A DNA stretch of 64,000 nt from Deuterostichococcus epilithicus (Eukaryota > Chlorophyta > Trebouxiophyceae > Prasiolales > Stichococcaceae). Below the pieces are notes generated by a model. The model was not told the DNA's origin. It saw nothing but the letters and a program-made list of their open reading frames with translations, and did not search any database. Position 1 is the first letter of the stretch. Each line of letters opens with the position of its first letter. A program made the position numbers and the translations under genes. The DNA is taken from the NCBI GenBank assembly GCA_033439295.1, contig JAVTLE010000016.1, positions 930,001 through 994,000 of the forward strand. Direction: 5' to 3'. Shown here one piece after another: positions 55,530 through 64,000 of the stretch.

Positions 55530-57460
55530 ATGGCTCACGCCGCGCCAGCCAATGCAAATGGACACACATCAGACGCGCGGCGCATCAGGATCGGCGTCCT
55601 GGCGCTGCAGGGCTCATTCAGGGAGCACATGGCGACCCTGCGGCGGCTACCCAATGTGGAGGCGGTGGAGGTCCGAACCAAAGAGCAGTTGAACAGCGTC
55701 GACGCCCTCATCATTCCAGGTGCAAACATGAGCTGGACAAAGGCAGCGGTTGAGGACTGTCACCCAGAGTGCATGCCGCCAAGCTGTTAGCAGCCCTGGA
55801 GTGACATGCGTCGCCGAGCGCATCAAATGTCTCAGGCACAACACCCCATAGATAGCCTCTCAACCTTCTGCTTTCAGGTGGCGAGAGCACGACTATGGCC
55901 AACATCGCGGAGCGGTGGGGCCTCATCCCGGACCTGCGGTCATTCTGCTCCGCCGCCAAGCCGGTGTGGGGCACCTGCGCCGGACTCATCTTTCTTGCGG
56001 ACCGCGCGACAGGTACTGAACAATCTCCTAGAATATGAGCTCGAATCAAGGCGACGATGTTCGGATGATGTGCCGCTGCTGTGTGGGCGAAGGCAGCCTT
56101 CGGGCTGGCCATGCCCCTTGCGGTCAGCGGCATGGTTGTCGCGCGTCTGCGACAAAGAAGATGTCGATGCCCTGCCCTGGCGGCGCCTTGCGGCGACAGC
56201 TGCGCCCACTCATCACAGTCAAAGTTCAGGCATGACCTCAAGTGCCAATGTTGCTCCCGCTTGGGGGGAAACACATGGTTCCCAGGCAAGGTCGGATCAG
56301 GCACTGTGTTGCGCTTGCGGCAGGCGTCAAGCAGGGCGGGCAGGCGCTGCTGGGCGGACTGGACTGCCTCGTGCAGCGCAACTTCTTTGGCGCGCAGATC
56401 AACAGCTTCGAAACACAGATGCCGTGCCCACCATGCTTCCAGAACGGCAGCGCTGGTGGCGGTGCCAAGGCGGAGCCATACCGCGCCGTGTTCATCAGGT
56501 GCTGCTTCACCTCAGTTCTCATTCTGATGTATGTGTCCTATGTGAGACCCGTCTTTGGACAGGAAACATGATGCAGGCTGCTGATTCTGGACGATTCGAC
56601 TTCCTGAACTCGTATGCCCTGCTACAGGGCGCCTGGCATCCTGGAGTGTGGCCCCAGCCTGGACGTCCTGTCAGGTTGCCTTTGCTCGCACGTGCACCTT
56701 CCCTTGATTCCGCTGCCTTCCCTTGATTTTGCTGCCGAGGAACGCCTCGCAGGCCGTCAGGAGCGTGAGGAAAGACCTTTGCGCCTCGCCTGTCGACACG
56801 GGCAAAGTGCCTGCCGAAAGAGGCTCCGGCCCAGAGGACATTTGGCGCACATGCTGCCAAGCCTGTAGACCTTTGGCGCGCATTAACTTGTATGCCTAAT
56901 ATGAACAGGTGAATGGGAAATATTTTGTGGTGGAGCTCACAAAGTGCTGAGCAGGCATGCTTCCTGCGCCTGCAGAGTACCAGCTCACGGCCGAGGAGCA
57001 GGCGCAAGCGGGCGGCGTGACATCCGTGGCGGTCGCGGTGCGCTCAGGGCCGCTGCTGGCCACCGCCTTCCACCCGGAGCTGACGGACGACGTGCGGTGG
57101 TGCGCTGCCACGAAAGCTGTGTGTCTGGTCCGGTCCGGACGTGTGACAGTGGACTGCTTTGCGTTGTGACTGGCGCCGTCGCTGCGGCGTACACGATAAA
57201 AAGCGCGGCACCCCGTCGGACAGCTGCCGAAGGCTCTTGGTCAGCAGTAGATCAAATGTTTTGCAGCTTTCTGCAGCAATTCGAGGACAAGACCACTCGT
57301 ATGTTGCTGCAGGCACAAGCTGTTTGTGGACATGGTGCGAGCGCAGCCGGGGGCAGAGAACAGCAGCGCCGCCAATTTTCCTATGCAGCGACTGCCCAGC
57401 GACTCCAATCGGCCGCGGGACATCCCCGTATACACTCAGGATCTGACGCAGGGCTGGTAG
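55530..57460 (+). CDS. PDX2: Pyridoxal 5'-phosphate synthase glutaminase subunit PdxT/PDX2
   Basis: Six exons (55530-55719, 55878-56012, 56324-56498, 56628-56674, 56976-57099, 57313-57460) give about 272 residues. Seen: [20 protein letters not shown], a [20 protein letters not shown] oxyanion strand, [13 protein letters not shown] with the nucleophile Cys, [35 protein letters not shown], and [13 protein letters not shown] with the catalytic His-Glu. Known: class I glutaminase that feeds ammonia to PDX1, which builds vitamin B6 from ribose 5-phosphate and glyceraldehyde 3-phosphate. All triad residues are intact. Compared with bacterial PdxT there is a short N-terminal extension and a C-terminal tail of about 35 residues after [11 protein letters not shown], as in plant PDX2. 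The insertion [20 protein letters not shown] in the mid-domain loop is Cys/Gly-rich. No organelle leader is evident. Confidence 0.94.
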
Positions 57461-57977
57461 AGACAGTGACGGCGGCATTGCAATCGGATTGTCAGTTGCG
57501 GAGCGGCATGGCCTTGTGCAGGTTCATCTGTGGTGGGCCTGTGTAGCTGAATATCCAGGCAATCGAAATATGATTTCTAGAACGATTGGAATCTTGTCAA
57601 ACGGCTGTGGTTGTCTGACTCTGCCCAACTATGAGTGGCGGCGCTAGTCTGTCATGTCGACGTGATTGGTGTCACATAGGTACCCTGAGAAATGACCAAG
57701 TGCAGAGTTTTACAGCCTACTGACCCCCAACTGACGCAAACGGAATCTCGTCTTGACCCGCACGTGCCACTCCAACAACCATCACCAATCTGGATGGCGG
57801 GCCAATTGCTGGTTTTCTTAGAGCTGAGGCCCCGCCATATCGGCCACAGAGATGCTGCGAATCTGGATCGTCGCATCAGCCTGAAAGCCTCGCCCTGCAC
57901 TATTACCGCTTCAGCTTAGCTTAAGGATCAGCCGTCGGAAAAGGGTCCTCTTGTCGTATCCGCAGACCGATAAACTG
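57461..57977. other. Intergenic region between PDX2 and the alanine-rich gene
   Basis: 517 bases holding the PDX2 3' UTR and the promoter of the next gene on the same strand. No gene or clear element was seen. Confidence 0.5.
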
Positions 57978-60900
57978 ATGGCTGGCTCCAACATGCGCCT
58001 CGTCGTTCTACCGGTGGTACTGCTGCTCGCCGCTGGGAAATCCGCCGCCCAGAAGAACATTGGTATTTTCTTACTAAACCTGCTTTAGAGGGTGGCAAAG
58101 TTGCTGGGCGATCCTGCAAAAGAATGGAACAACATATGCCTGTCGGACACCAGTGCTTGGTCTGAATTGGATAGATGAGGAGCCGATGGCACCGTGACTG
58201 CCAGCGTAGAGGTCCATGAGCATGCGCAGCATTACTTCGGTCCGCTGCTCTTCCCAGCGCAGTCTGCAGTGCTTTTCCTTCGCAGTGTTTGCGAGGTTGA
58301 CAGAGCACCGGAAGCCTTTTGCATCCTGCACCTGGTGGACTGGATCCATGCGCGATCTGCTGCATTATTGCCAAGTGCAGGAGTGGGCGGCATGCCGCAC
58401 CTGGCACAGATTGACACCTGGGCGCCGTGGCTAACCTTCGGCGGCGTCTCCCGCGGCCTGCTGCAGGTCCGAGTCTGCCTCCTACTGTCTTGTAAACTGC
58501 TACATGAGCCACTTGCGGATCTCTAGCTCATCGCCAAGCCTAGAAACATCTCCCCCCCATCATCGCGCCGTGCGTGTCAGTATGAGAAGCATTCCCTGTT
58601 ACAACATGGCGACACACAGCTGAGCAGTGGCAAGATTCCCTTACTCACCCGCAATGCGGTTTCAGTCCATTGCCACCATCGACTCTGCGGCTGCGCTGGG
58701 AGCGCAGGGCTCTCCTTCGCCAACCTCAAGTGGGGCCAGCGCGGCAACTGCTGCGGCAAGCGCCGCCGCAGGTGCTGCAAACGCCGCCGCAACCGCCGTC
58801 GCAACGACAGGTACAGCCATTACTGTCGAGCCATCTGGGTGCCACAACCACTGCTGACAGAGTTGTTCAATATGACAGTCGTGGCAGTTTGCCAGCATGC
58901 TCTGAGGAAATCACCCTGAGCACCAATTTCAGAGCAGGGACAGATGCAATGACCCCAGTCACAGGCAGTCGATCCTTGCGAGTCACCTGCTGTCTGCCTG
59001 CTGTGCAATACATGCAGGCACTAGTGATGCTGCAGCGGCCGCTTCCGCCGCCGCAACCGCCGGTCGAGCAGCCACGGCAGCGGCAGCAACTGCCGCTGCC
59101 GCGGGCCAGGTGCGTGATCGAAAACACTTCCAAGGTCCCCTGGTCGTTTTCCGACATAAAGGCAAAGACTGCGGAGTCGTATTGGCAACAGACATGCTGG
59201 TGCAGTCATAGAGATACTTTACCCACACTGTGCCTGCAAATAGTCGACTCCTTGCTGATGATACATGCAAGTATGGCCAATTGCCTATTTACAGGGAGCT
59301 GCCGCAGCCTCGGCTGCTGCGGCAGGCTCGGCGGCTGCGACGGCTGCCTCTGCTGTTCGCGCCTCGCGTATCTCGGCGGCTGCTGAAGCCGCGGCCTCCG
59401 CAACCCAGAACGCCGGCGTGCACCTCACACTCATCGGGAGCGAGATCATCTGATCAGCAATTCTGCTGATGCTGCACATGTGCCTGCTGATTCTTGCAAG
59501 AGCAGCTTGACAAGGCTATAGCAGAGGCAGATGCCAGTCGTGTCGACATCTGCGACTGCGCAAACAGGATGCGCTGCTTCAGCAGCAGCCATGGCACTGG
59601 GCCAAAACTCCTCCGCCGCCTCCGCCGCCGCGGCTTCGACGGTCAGCACCATCACTGCCACGGCGTCGGCTGCGGTGGCTGCAGCCACGGGAACCGCCTC
59701 CGCGTCTGCGGCAGCGGCTGCAGCTTCGGCCATCTCCGTGTATGCCAATGCCACCGCTGCCGGCGCCGCTGCAGCCGGGGCCACTTCCACTGCCACCGCG
59801 GCCTCGGCGGCAGCCGCGTCGGCCGCGTCGGCCGCGTCAGCTGCCAGCACCAACAACACCCAGGCGACTGTTCCTGTTCCTGTTNCTGTTCCTGTTCCTG
59901 TTCCTGTTCCTGTTCCTGTTCCTGTTCCTGTTCCTGGTGTGTCGCCTATTTGCAAGGTCTCAAGAGTGGATTCCTTCCTCCATCCAGGCTGCTTGTCTGA
60001 TGTTCTGCTTGTACTCGTGACACCAGCATGGGCAGATGTACTGGGTGCTTATGGCTGTTAGGAATCGTTTTGGATAACGACCTGCGACAACATGCAGGCT
60101 GCAGCGACGGCGGCAGCAAGTGCCACAAGCAGCGCCGCAGCGGCCGCCAGCTCCGCAGCGATGACATCCGGCGCTTCCTCGGCCGCTGCTGCTTCGGCAT
60201 CGGCGGCCATTGCCGCGAGCGCCGCCGCAGGAGCGTCGGCTGCGGCCTCGTCCAGCGCCTCCAGTGAGCACATTACACGAAAGCTGCATCAAATGATGCA
60301 TGCCGGGCATGTGTCGGATTTTTTGTGTTATACTAATCTCTTATCGCAATTTTGAGTTTAAAAAAAACCCGGCGGCGTTCCATGCGGCACAGCTGGCGGG
60401 TCCTCTGCTGCCTCGGCCAGCGCCGTAGCGACGGCCATTGCGCAAGTGACCACCACCATTGCGACGACCGCCGCCTCTGCGGGAGCCTCGTCAGCCGCCT
60501 CTGCTGCTAGCTCCGCAGCCTCGTCTGCCTCAAGCGCAGCCTCGGCAGGCAGGTCCCTTGGGAATTTGCCTGGATTGCTGGGTCAACTTGTTCGCATCAG
60601 CTGAATGTGTTGCAAGGTCGCACATGTGGCAACAGCAGAGGCACATTTCACGGCATCATCCAGGTTTAACAACTTCTGTACGTCTGCATATTTCTGCGCT
60701 GCAGCGTCGTCAGGGAACACGGTTGCTGCCTCTACCGCCGCATCCGCTGCGGCTGCTGCAGTACGAGTGCACGAGTGCACGTGTGTTTCCGCAGGAGTTT
60801 GCTGTGCTGTGCCTCGGGAAAGCGTGCAAACTCAGATGTTGACCGCTCGCAGGAGAAAGGCACAGTTGCCAATTTCGAGATTCTGAGGGGCTCTGGTTCT

Positions 60901-63900
60901 TTTTCAGGCCGCCACTTCCGCTTCTGCTGCGGCATCTGCCGGGGCTACGGTGCAGGTGCAGCAAAGCTTTTCTGCTGTGCTGCAAGCCAGCGGACGGGAC
61001 CATGACTTTGCCCGTGTCGCCGCAGCCTATCAGCCAAATATTGCAATAGGGCCGCGGCTTGCAAAAGCTTCAATTTGCTTTGGGCAAGGATTGCCACCTG
61101 GATCCACCCCATCACCCCACCCTGCAGATCTAAGATGAGGCTCCTCCGCCACAGGGGAATGTGGCGGCAGGCGCCTCCGCAGGCGCGGCTTCGGGTCGTG
61201 GTGCCCCGGTTCCGCCAGCGCCCAAAACCGCAATTGCAGCCGGTTCGCCGGTCGCCACGACCGCTCCTTTCACGACGCTCGCGCCGTTTCCAACGCCGCC
61301 GCCGATGGCGCCTGCTCCAGTGGCGCCGATGCCAAAAATTGCTCCAGCGGCGCCGACGCCTGCGCCTACGCCAACGCCGACGCCGGCGCCTGCAAAGGTC
61401 ACTGGTGCGCAAACCAGCCTTGGCTGCAGGTCATCAAAGCGAGAGGCACGTTATTCGTCCTCTTGCCAGTGTTTGTAGCCCGACTGGTACTAGTGATAAT
61501 TGGCTCGGCCATTGCTGCTCCTGCACTTCTCGCCTTCCGCCAGCATCTGCACCTGTATTTGTGTTAGAGAAGGATTACAACTTTCCTGCACTGGAAGCCT
61601 CACACGGGGGGTTTGCGTCTTATTATGCAGGTGCGGCATCCGTCGCCACAGCAACGGCGGCAGCGAGTGCTGCTGCAGGGGCAGCCTCAGCTGCCGCCGC
61701 TGCCGCAGCCGCCGCAGGTGTGCGCCAGACACATAAAAACATGTGCAGCGCATCTCCTGAAGCCACTGCACAGGACAATGCCCGCAACAGCTTACAGTGC
61801 TTCAACCGACGCCTGCTTCTGATGCCTCCTGATGCCGCATGTTCAGGCACAAGTTCTGCTTCTGCCGCCAGCGCTGCCGCGAGCGCGGCCGGCCAGCAGG
61901 CAACCGCCGCCGCGACAGCTGCTGCCGCAGCCGGTCAAGCAAGTCACCGGATCCACAGCTTACCGTCTCTACTGGACCGCATGCCCTGCGTTGTTGTTGC
62001 CGTGTATCCACTGCTGTTCTCAAAGACGCAACTAGACTGCGGATGCAACGTCGCATCAGCAGCAGCTGTGTGCCTGCCCAGGCAGAGTTTAGTCCAGCAG
62101 CAGATTGGTGGCTTGCATTGCCCGAGCTTGGGCCTGAGAAAGAGTTTAGCGCAAGCTGCTTGGGTCCTCCATCGCCGAAGCCACAACTCCGATATCGGCT
62201 TGGGAACAGGGCACTGCTGCAGCGTCTGCTGCGGCTGCGGGGAGTGCTGCTTCGGCAACGGCTGCCGCCCTGAGTAGGAATCATACGGCGGGCGCTGCAG
62301 CTGCGGCTGCGACTGCCGCGCTGAACGCAGGCGCGCCCTGCTCGGCAAGAAACCCCGCCCTGCTTGGCGGAAAAAAACGCTTTCGCCGCCCCATTCAGCA
62401 GTGGTATGGGCCTGGACTTGCTGTGCTGCATTCGCTGAGCAGTGCCTTTTTTTCTTCAGGCTGTGCTGCTTCTGCTGCTGCTGCGGCGGCTGGGGGCAAC
62501 GCCACCGCGGCAGCAGCCGCCTCAGCATCTGCCATCAGCGTCGCCGCGGCCTCTGCAGCTTCTGCGGTGCAACATTCAGACTCAGCATACGCCTGTCCAA
62601 TAGAGATGCCCTTCAAGTCTGGCAGCGACTTCAGCGCCCCCTTGTAGCATGCAGGCTGAAGGCAAGACAACATTGCCGTCTACCCTTTCAGAAACCGAGT
62701 GTGGGATCCTCCATGTCTCCGAACCATCCTTTTCCAGGCTGCTGCGACCACCGGCACCTCTGCCTCGGCTGCCGCATCGGCTGTGGCCGGCACACTCTCC
62801 GTCACGACCGCCGCGGCTGCAGCAGGTGCTCGACCGTTTGGGCATGGTGTCCTTTGCAGCGTGTGCAGTGAGGCGCCACGCCTCAGCAATGATCGTTTGC
62901 ATGGAAGTGGGTGCCCCAGGGTGGGAACTGTCATGCTGGCACCTCTGCCTCTCGTACCACCTGCACAACGCTGTGTGGATCTGTGCGAGAGGTTGCTCGA
63001 CACTTCTGATACTAAGCGACTCGACACGAACTGGCTGCTGTCGGCCGTCCCGTGTCCACCTGCGCACATCACCGTGCGCAGGCGCGTCCGCCGTCGGCGC
63101 CTCGGTAGCGGCGGCTTCTGCGAACGCCACCGCCNCCGCCGCCAGTGCCGCCGCAAGCGCCTCCGCCAGCGGGAATGTGTCTGCCGCCGCCAGCGCCGCA
63201 GCATCTGCTACTGCCGGGCACGTCTTTGCTTTAGACTGCTTTGTTTAGTGCCCTCCCTGCTCCGCAGTGTCGGGCAGCCTTGAGGAGTGAAGGCAGCAGT
63301 GCAGCGAGCAGTTTGTGGAGCTGCAGCAGGAGGAAGTCGAACAATGCGTGCTGAGATGCCCCTGACGTGCGAGCTACAATCAGCGCACGCAGATGGTGCT
63401 TGGCCGCCGCGGCGCGAGCACTGATATGTTCGGAGACCAGGCTGTTTGCACCACGTGCAGAGCGGCGGCGACCGCATCGGCGGCAGCGAGCACGTCCGGC
63501 GCGAGCAGCAGCGCTTCAGCTGCGGCGGCAGCTGCGGCAGCGGCGACCTCCTCTGCCGCCGCCTCTGCCGCCGCTGCCGCGACCGCCTCAAGTGAGAGTG
63601 CAGTTGTCTGCCATGGGTGCAATGCAGTGGCACCCACAAGCCTCGTCAGCGCACGTGTTTAACTGCCTGCCAGACTGCACATATGCATATACCCAAGTGA
63701 GGCATGCTCAAGCTACTACTGGTGATCGGCTGTGTCACGACATCTCATGCGGTTGTGCCAAATGATCTATGGCTGACTGCGCTCTGGATGCCACGCAGCG
63801 GGCGGCGCCGCCGCTGCCTCCGCCGCAGCAACAGCGACGGCCGTCGCCAGTGCCACGGCATCTGTGTCCGCTGCAGCGTCAGCAGCCGGCGCAACTGCGG

Positions 63901-64000
63901 CTGCCTCTTCTGCCAGCGCCGCCGCTTCGAGCGCCTCCTCTGCTGCAGCTGCAGGTGCTGCGTTGGATATGCCCGTCTCAGTGCTTCCTACCGACACACT
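57978..64000 (+). CDS. Secreted alanine-rich modular protein (5' part; continues past the window)
   Basis: I do not recognise a family. Exon 57978-58062 encodes a signal peptide (MRLVVLPVVLLLAAGKSAAQ). Seventeen further exons keep frame: 58628-58810, 59018-59109, 59295-59417, 59525-59938, 60098-60263, 60393-60548, 60705-60766, 60908-60949, 61155-61404, 61631-61717, 61847-61938, 62210-62330, 62460-62566, 62738-62825, 63082-63217, 63461-63591 and 63799-63954; about 830 residues so far. Almost every exon encodes a block of 14-80 residues dominated by Ala with Ser, Thr and Gly (e.g. SAAAAAASAISVYANATAAG). Exceptions are a (Val-Pro)11 tract at 59870-59935 and a Thr/Pro/Ala segment (PTPAPTPTPTPAPA) in 61155-61404, like hydroxyproline-rich wall proteins. 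NAT sequons recur. Inference: a secreted wall or matrix glycoprotein, possibly fibrous. Several exon edges rest only on frame and composition; four donors are GC. Confidence 0.68.
59870..59935 (+). repeat. Hexanucleotide repeat (GTTCCT)11 encoding (Val-Pro)11
   Basis: Eleven uninterrupted units, one with an N at 59885, at the end of the alanine-rich exon 59525-59938. Copy number is likely polymorphic and hard to assemble. Confidence 0.92.

Follow-up and report, generated by a model that had tools for sequence, protein, structure and literature searches.

The evolution of low-complexity proteins is usually attributed to slippage and homogenization, with constraint acting mainly on composition. 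Spidroins carry conserved N- and C-terminal domains, pherophorins are defined by the pherophorin domain, and mucin-type regions usually contain Pro. A classical arabinogalactan protein has a secretory leader, consists for more than half of Pro, Ala, Ser and Thr, contains the dipeptides AP, PA, SP, TP and VP over most of the mature protein, ends in a hydrophobic C-terminal glycosylphosphatidylinositol (GPI) signal and bears hydroxyproline-linked glycans. Type I antifreeze proteins have an 11-residue Thr spacing on an Ala-rich helix. Here we report on an Ala-rich multi-exon gene of the green alga Deuterostichococcus epilithicus, which runs off the right end of a 64-kb stretch of DNA (contig JAVTLE010000016.1, positions 930,001 to 994,000 of the forward strand; hereafter, the window), and on a paralogue of this gene on another contig. 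The gene was confirmed, and comparison at the level of sequence shows that the amino-acid sequence of its repeated unit has been kept, while the Ala codons have mostly been randomized and the introns have lost detectable similarity. It is probably an intact nuclear gene for a secreted Ala/Ser/Thr-rich structural protein of the wall or matrix, one of at least two paralogues.

The predicted protein resembles spider silk (spidroins, Flag and some MaSp2), as far as this is described in the available passages of two papers (PMC3522626, PMC9779670), in being an Ala-rich, low-complexity, apparently secreted protein encoded by many small exons. According to the same passages, intron-rich silk genes have near-identical introns and homogenized repeats, the introns within Argiope MaSp2 being 97.6% identical on average (PMC9779670); the algal gene is the opposite, with unlike introns and distinct, ordered modules. 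In addition, Pfam revealed no spidroin domain in either algal protein. The silk likeness put forward in the original prediction, which had been made from the letters of the window, thus holds for composition and fails for the dynamics of the gene.

The ten-module unit and its three copies

The unit consists of ten distinct modules, designated a to j, that follow one another in fixed order, twice in tandem in the window gene and once in the paralogue. An exon-per-module layout had been proposed for this gene; it has to be revised, as the exons represent these ten different modules instead of serial copies of a single one. Because the window gene has two units, its TPAP-rich exon (61155-61404) can be recognized as the module j that closes unit 1. 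Exact exon lengths are common to all three copies for modules b (92 bases), g (156), h (56) and i (48), and the intron phase is identical in the three copies at the a/b, b/c, f/g, g/h, h/i and i/j junctions. The exons of g, h and i begin in phases 1, 1 and 0. The phase also agrees, where the intron is present, at c/d (units 1 and 2; this intron is absent in the paralogue) and at d/e (unit 2 and paralogue). The splitting of the modules differs among the copies, d and e being fused in unit 1, d being split in unit 2 and a being split in the paralogue.

The order of the modules was assessed from the alignments of all modules of one unit with all those of another, read by row for each of the three possible pairs of units, and from z-scores and 100,000 random orders. 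For these tests, as well as for the composition counts given below, the non-repetitive head of a was trimmed in unit 1 and in the paralogue, the VP tract was removed, d1 was divided manually into d and e, and a single X, which stands for an N in the DNA, was taken as A. The module of the same name was the best partner in seven of the ten rows for unit 1 versus unit 2, in all ten for unit 1 versus the paralogue, and in nine for unit 2 versus the paralogue. Another module scored best for a, h and i of unit 1 when these were compared with unit 2 (j in each case), and for a of unit 2 when it was compared with the paralogue (b). None of the 100,000 random orders matched the observed sum in any of the three comparisons. 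Only 7 of the 270 off-diagonal z-scores exceeded 3, so that there is little likeness between different modules and no visible sign that the unit is itself a repeat.

The paralogue was found by a protein search of the organism's own genome (46.8 Mb in 21 contigs, the window being part of contig C14) with the C-terminal exon of the window gene (j2). It is located on contig C11 at 2762261-2765976, and its 13 exons encode 488 amino acids, 46.9% of them Ala, beginning with a hydrophobic leader. The N-terminal segments of the two proteins (exon 2 and the start of exon 3 in the window gene) resemble each other to some extent, with the common pattern IDT-aromatic-x-P...LLQ (z 4.4; 3 of 5000 shuffles were as good). 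A short non-repetitive segment, somewhat alike in the paralogues and placed before a long low-complexity shaft, would suit a sexual agglutinin or adhesion protein instead of a building block of the wall, in which case the Ala/Ser modules would form a rigid stalk holding the segment outwards; the segment is, however, only about 45 amino acids long and contains no Pfam domain, and we regard this function as quite improbable.

Searches of the same genome with j2, a piece of exon 6, j1, g1, both N2 exons and the paralogue exons cd, a0, j and g revealed only these two genes. The g exon of the paralogue retrieved three places at E <= 10, namely the three copies of g, the two in the window gene being weak (E 0.05 and 0.98). 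Fourteen other weak places were scanned for Ala/Ser/Thr blocks, and no array comparable to that of either gene was present; single blocks were seen, the two with the highest scores (36 and 48 bits) lying near C4:1613626 and one of these being pure poly-Ala. Since composition-corrected scoring hides Ala-rich relatives, two genes must be taken as a lower bound. Beyond the alga's own genome, pattern matches were obtained in viral contigs (600) and in bacterial and archaeal genomes (595), none of them a confirmed relative. Relatives in other algae, annotated ones included, may well exist.

The presence of two paralogues and of an internal duplication provides three old copies that can be aligned by module, and the constraint acting inside Ala/Ser sequence can therefore be measured directly. 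Only the modules without gaps, namely b, g, h and i (118 of about 340 codons per unit), were used to compare codons between the three pairs of copies. Amino-acid identity amounted to 75, 80 and 84 of the 118 positions (64-71%), versus shuffled means of 40.6, 40.4 and 44.0 (34-37%), and codon positions agreed at 84-86% for the second, 65-73% for the first and 30-42% for the third base. Where Ala was shared, the same codon was used at 16 of 47, 14 of 50 and 22 of 55 positions (15.3, 14.6 and 16.5 expected), which is about chance in two of the three comparisons. With third positions and Ala codons mostly at chance and the amino acids kept, the synonymous sites have mostly lost the trace of the duplications (least so between unit 2 and the paralogue), in contrast to the protein, which has kept it. 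Most of the differing residue pairs (82 of 115) are Ala-Ser, Ala-Thr or Ser-Thr exchanges, and 8 of the 11 columns with Gly have no other residue. No pairwise match was found at E 0.01 among the 33 introns of both genes.

These data bear on the possibility that the gene is a compositional accident, produced by GC-rich drift or repeat expansion and lying antisense to, or beside, a real gene. The window is indeed GC-rich, Ala frames are found on the minus strand too, and one antisense frame is conserved. Such an accident would, however, not be expected to leave ordered homology in three copies, six introns agreeing in phase, third positions mostly at chance and a sense frame more conserved than the antisense one; moreover, positions 1-57500 of the window contain no Ala/Ser/Thr block of at least 35 bits on either strand. 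An accident is thus hardly credible, and the ordered, constrained modules point to a real structural protein. As had been stated in the original prediction, there is no simple trinucleotide expansion, all four Ala codons being used (GCC 155, GCG 96, GCT 95 and GCA 84, counted on a first gene model that allowed GT donors only).

Exon structure and neighbouring genes

The region 57501-66000 was scanned on both strands for Ala/Ser/Thr blocks of at least 20 bits. The plus strand contained 19 such blocks, from 58684 to 64732, and the minus strand only nine, weaker ones. Sixteen of the plus-strand blocks begin inside the window, which together with the TPAP-rich exon would give the seventeen exons originally counted there. 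A dynamic-programming gene finder, which was supplied with the start and stop codons, splice-site weights and a model of Ala-rich composition, and which allowed GT or GC donors and made no use of homology, recovered exactly 18 of the 22 exons of the window gene and 10 of the 13 of the paralogue, bearing out the multi-exon Ala/Ser/Thr gene. The exons missed were the leader exon (SP), N2 (exon 2), c1 and d1 in the window gene, the ends of c1 and d1 being set by comparison, and N2, a0 and j in the paralogue. It should be noted that the final models of both genes were drawn up manually in the light of the other copies, and that the comparison of the gene models is partly circular; as the script recovered every copy of b, g, h and i, the exact-length agreement of these modules is independent of hand choice. 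The first model, restricted to GT donors, had 23 exons and 910 amino acids, included doubtful exons at 58230-58261 and 63305-63366 but lacked the exon at 58381; it was replaced after comparison with the paralogue and admission of GC donors.

In its final model the window gene is complete, with 22 exons and 926 amino acids (46.4% Ala, 15.1% Ser, 9.1% Thr and 7.1% Gly). It had been predicted to run past the window, and rightward extension of the contig showed a TGA stop at 64868-64870 (window numbering), starting 868 bases past the window end, after a Pro-rich C-terminus whose last residues are GCPNRC. The GC content is 72.5% in the coding exons (62.7% at third positions) and 55% in the introns.

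All the exons lie on the plus strand. Exon 1 (57978-58062) contains the start codon and the signal-peptide-like leader MAGSNMRLVVLPVVLLLAAGKSAAQ, and ends in phase 1; it has the same length (85 bases) and phase as the first exon of the paralogue, and a later run of the script chose a shorter exon 1. Exon 2 (58381-58466), which encodes the short non-repetitive N-terminal segment (PHLAQIDTWAPWLTF..RGLLQ), was set by hand from the paralogue and missed by composition-driven scripts. Exon 3 (58666-58810) completes this segment and encodes module a of unit 1. It is followed by exon 4 (59018-59109; b, 92 bases) and by exon 5 (59295-59415; c), whose GC donor was inferred from unit 2 and the paralogue, scripts having chosen a GT alternative with the end at 59417.

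Exon 6 (59568-59938) comprises the fused modules d and e, has a conserved Cys near its start and, as modelled, ends in a (VP)11 tract, with alternatives at both ends. The tract corresponds to a GTTCCT hexanucleotide repeat at 59870-59935, in which the 11 units noted originally are indeed present, one of them with an N; it may be coding, giving (VP)11, or intronic, as donors fit on both sides.

Unit 1 continues with exon 7 (60098-60263; f), exon 8 (60393-60548; g, 156 bases, with a GC donor), exon 9 (60705-60760; h, 56 bases) and exon 10 (60908-60955; i, 48 bases), and closes with exon 11 (61155-61404; j), a Pro-rich linker with AP/TP repeats and 23 Pro among 83 residues. Unit 2 begins with exon 12 (61631-61717; a), followed by exon 13 (61847-61938; b, 92 bases, GC donor gcaagt) and exon 14 (62210-62330; c, GC donor). 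Module d is divided between exon 15 (62460-62566), which contains the conserved Cys, and exon 16 (62738-62825), and is followed by exon 17 (63082-63217; e, GC donor), exon 18 (63461-63591; f) and exon 19 (63799-63954; g, 156 bases). Exons 20-22, encoding h, i and j of unit 2, follow outside the window; in its numbering they span 64165-64220, 64434-64481 and 64688-64870 (contig C14:994165-994870).

A GC instead of a GT donor is used by 5 of the 21 introns of the window gene and 3 of the 12 of the paralogue, that is by 8 of 33 altogether, and four of the five in the window gene were also picked by the homology-free script. For plants, an average of about 1.2% GC-AG introns is given in the available part of PMC6310983. 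Not far from the window gene, a four-exon gene for a CKS cyclin-dependent kinase regulatory subunit is found at L003:4287-5068 (contig C14:1000287-1001068; Pfam PF01111, E 1.2e-36), and one of its three introns (L003:4346-4479) has a GC donor. Given this donor in a neighbouring gene, the large proportion may reflect the genome at large, in which GC-AG introns may be unusually common, rather than the Ala-rich gene itself. Three introns of the gene for the RuBisCO small subunit (rbcS), which lies interrupted on the 3.1-Mb contig C11, have GT donors, as judged by eye. The best matches of this gene among solved structures are RuBisCO small chains, probably those of Chlamydomonas, in agreement with a green alga as the source of the DNA.

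Directly upstream of the Ala-rich gene, exons at about 56979-57462 resemble the end of a PdxT-type glutaminase, with an FHPELT motif that we take to be a mark of such enzymes. An Rfam search of the window gave no matches.

Composition and comparison with known families

Pro is absent from modules a-i in all three copies (340, 341 and 338 residues, 1,019 in total), an absence that is noteworthy because Pro is one base change away from Ala, Ser and Thr codons. The same modules contain only 5, 2 and 2 charged or His residues per unit, a single aromatic residue among all the 1,019, and one Cys per unit, always in the same place (GCAAS). The whole window-gene protein has 8 Lys and 8 Arg among its 926 residues, so that sites for trypsin are few. 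Ser and Thr account for 102 of 340, 90 of 341 and 96 of 338 residues. Pro is instead concentrated in the j modules (23 of 83, 17 of 60 and 14 of 59 residues), whose content of Pro, Ala, Ser and Thr is 63-72%, and in the last exon of the paralogue (7 of 21); what remains of the Pro falls within the VP tract, within the leader, exon 2 or the first part of exon 3, or within the matching N-terminal part of the paralogue.

A share of Ser and Thr of 26-30% in a-i would suit a mucin-like coat protein, that is, a soluble or mucilage glycoprotein with these residues densely O-glycosylated and with Ala-rich segments that are not packed, as would the N-X-S/T sequons (seven in the window-gene protein, one in the paralogue) and the Pro-rich AP/TP segments. 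Nevertheless, the complete lack of Pro in a-i is unlike mucin-type regions, and a loose glycosylated coil would have no need of the Gly positions and exact lengths that have been kept; this explanation appears unlikely, if the least so among those considered beside a structural protein.

The Pro-rich segments of the original prediction are borne out and are of the arabinogalactan or hydroxyproline-rich glycoprotein (HRGP) type, and the leader looks like the signal peptide that had been predicted. The maximum of hydropathy in the window-gene protein (1.8) begins at residue 1, and small residues come after the hydrophobic N-terminus; in the paralogue, all 15 hydropathy windows of at least 1.6 begin within the first 40 residues. 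Outside the leaders, values of at least 1.6 are reached only at residues 278 and 280 (1.63), in or around the VP tract. The likeness to arabinogalactan proteins and HRGPs extends from the signal-peptide-like leader to the sum of Pro, Ala, Ser and Thr (76.6% in the window-gene protein, 75.8% in the paralogue) and to the AP/TP/VP clusters in j. On the other hand, Pro makes up only 5.9% of the window-gene protein overall and none of a-i, and the classical dipeptides are concentrated in the j and k modules and the VP tract, with a few more close to the N-terminus. In addition, the GPI signal is absent, neither C-terminus being hydrophobic (VKPPAPGTLPVPPVPVGATGCPNRC and PARAGRYGPVPTTPTTPTAPAPTPV).

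No pherophorin domain was found in either protein by Pfam. The low-complexity Pro-rich proteins of chlorophytes, including the Chlamydomonas agglutinins, share with the present proteins the algal origin, the large size, the secretion (putative here) and the restriction of Pro-rich stretches to limited domains; in the available text of PMC3149072 they are described by SPn repeats, whereas the bulk of the present protein is Pro-free Ala/Ser sequence. Among the matches listed in a literature search, there was no description of such a protein family, in keeping with the original statement that no described family was known and with the Pfam results given below.

The Ala-dominated composition with Thr and Ser also recalls type I antifreeze proteins, an Ala-rich antifreeze composition having originally been seen in the protein. 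An Ala-rich helical ice-binding or stress protein would explain the very high Ala content and would be in line with the helices predicted, at low confidence, for one exon piece. However, an 11-residue spacing of Ser/Thr is not common to both proteins (z at lag 11 was 2.3 for the window-gene protein and -0.5 for the paralogue), and the likeness is not upheld on this count. The length of the protein, its multi-exon, two-block architecture with many modules and Pro-rich linkers, and the lack of a PDB match for the paralogue also speak against a role of this kind, which is very improbable indeed.

A putative structural protein of the wall or matrix

Several observations weigh against the reading of the gene as one for a constrained structural protein of the wall or matrix. 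Neither protein matched any Pfam family at E <= 1, and no PDB chain was found at E <= 10 for the paralogue, the only one of the two proteins compared with PDB; the functional reading therefore rests on composition and architecture. The periodicity of the sequence shows an excess at lags 2, 4, and 13 or 14 and a deficit at 5 and 9, with no clean helix or sheet signature. Structure prediction for one exon piece alone gave long helices of low confidence, with a mean predicted local distance difference test (pLDDT) score of 64.5 for the best model and 36.2 to 50.4 for the other four. As for the ordered unit, the e/f intron is in phase 0 in unit 1, as modelled, and in phase 2 in unit 2 and the paralogue, and some diagonal z-scores between units 1 and 2 are weak (e 1.5, h 2.8, f 3.0, a 3.2). 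Several exon queries did not retrieve the other gene, which reflects a limit either of the search or of the likeness; thus, the cd query of the paralogue did not find the window gene, and g1 did not find even g2, its own second copy. As for the constraint, the agreement of Ala codons between unit 2 and the paralogue is above chance. Conservation (55-64%, z 7.2-9.3) also extends to the antisense frame whose degenerate third position coincides with that of the sense frame; it is lower there than in the sense frame, and two of the three comparisons show a stop. Finally, neither of the poly(A) signals TGTAA and AATAAA occurs within 1 kb past the stop of either gene.

If the gene does encode a structural protein of the wall or matrix, its product may be pictured as a block copolymer that belongs to the cell wall or to the outer matrix. 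The leader would direct the protein into the secretory pathway; the Pro-rich j modules could be hydroxylated and glycosylated, as in arabinogalactan proteins and HRGPs, and form extended, hydrated linkers. The Pro-free, almost uncharged modules a-i, about 340 amino acids per unit, would form regular helix or sheet, by folding or packing, and bring about the association of chains, and the single Cys of each unit, together with the C-terminal GCPNRC, might cross-link the chains.

We tentatively suggest, as a possibility somewhat short of even, that these genes represent a class of structural proteins in which near-pure Ala/Ser/Thr sequence is position-specific. Ten low-complexity modules, several of exact length, would have kept fixed Gly residues and a fixed order with no homogenization, so that the sequence would be read out residue by residue, possibly with each exon supplying one register of a strand or helix. 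For a protein located in the wall or matrix, this would mean a silk-like material made from few genes in a green alga, and the two genes would then offer a test case for the assembly of Pro-free Ala blocks with Pro-rich linkers.

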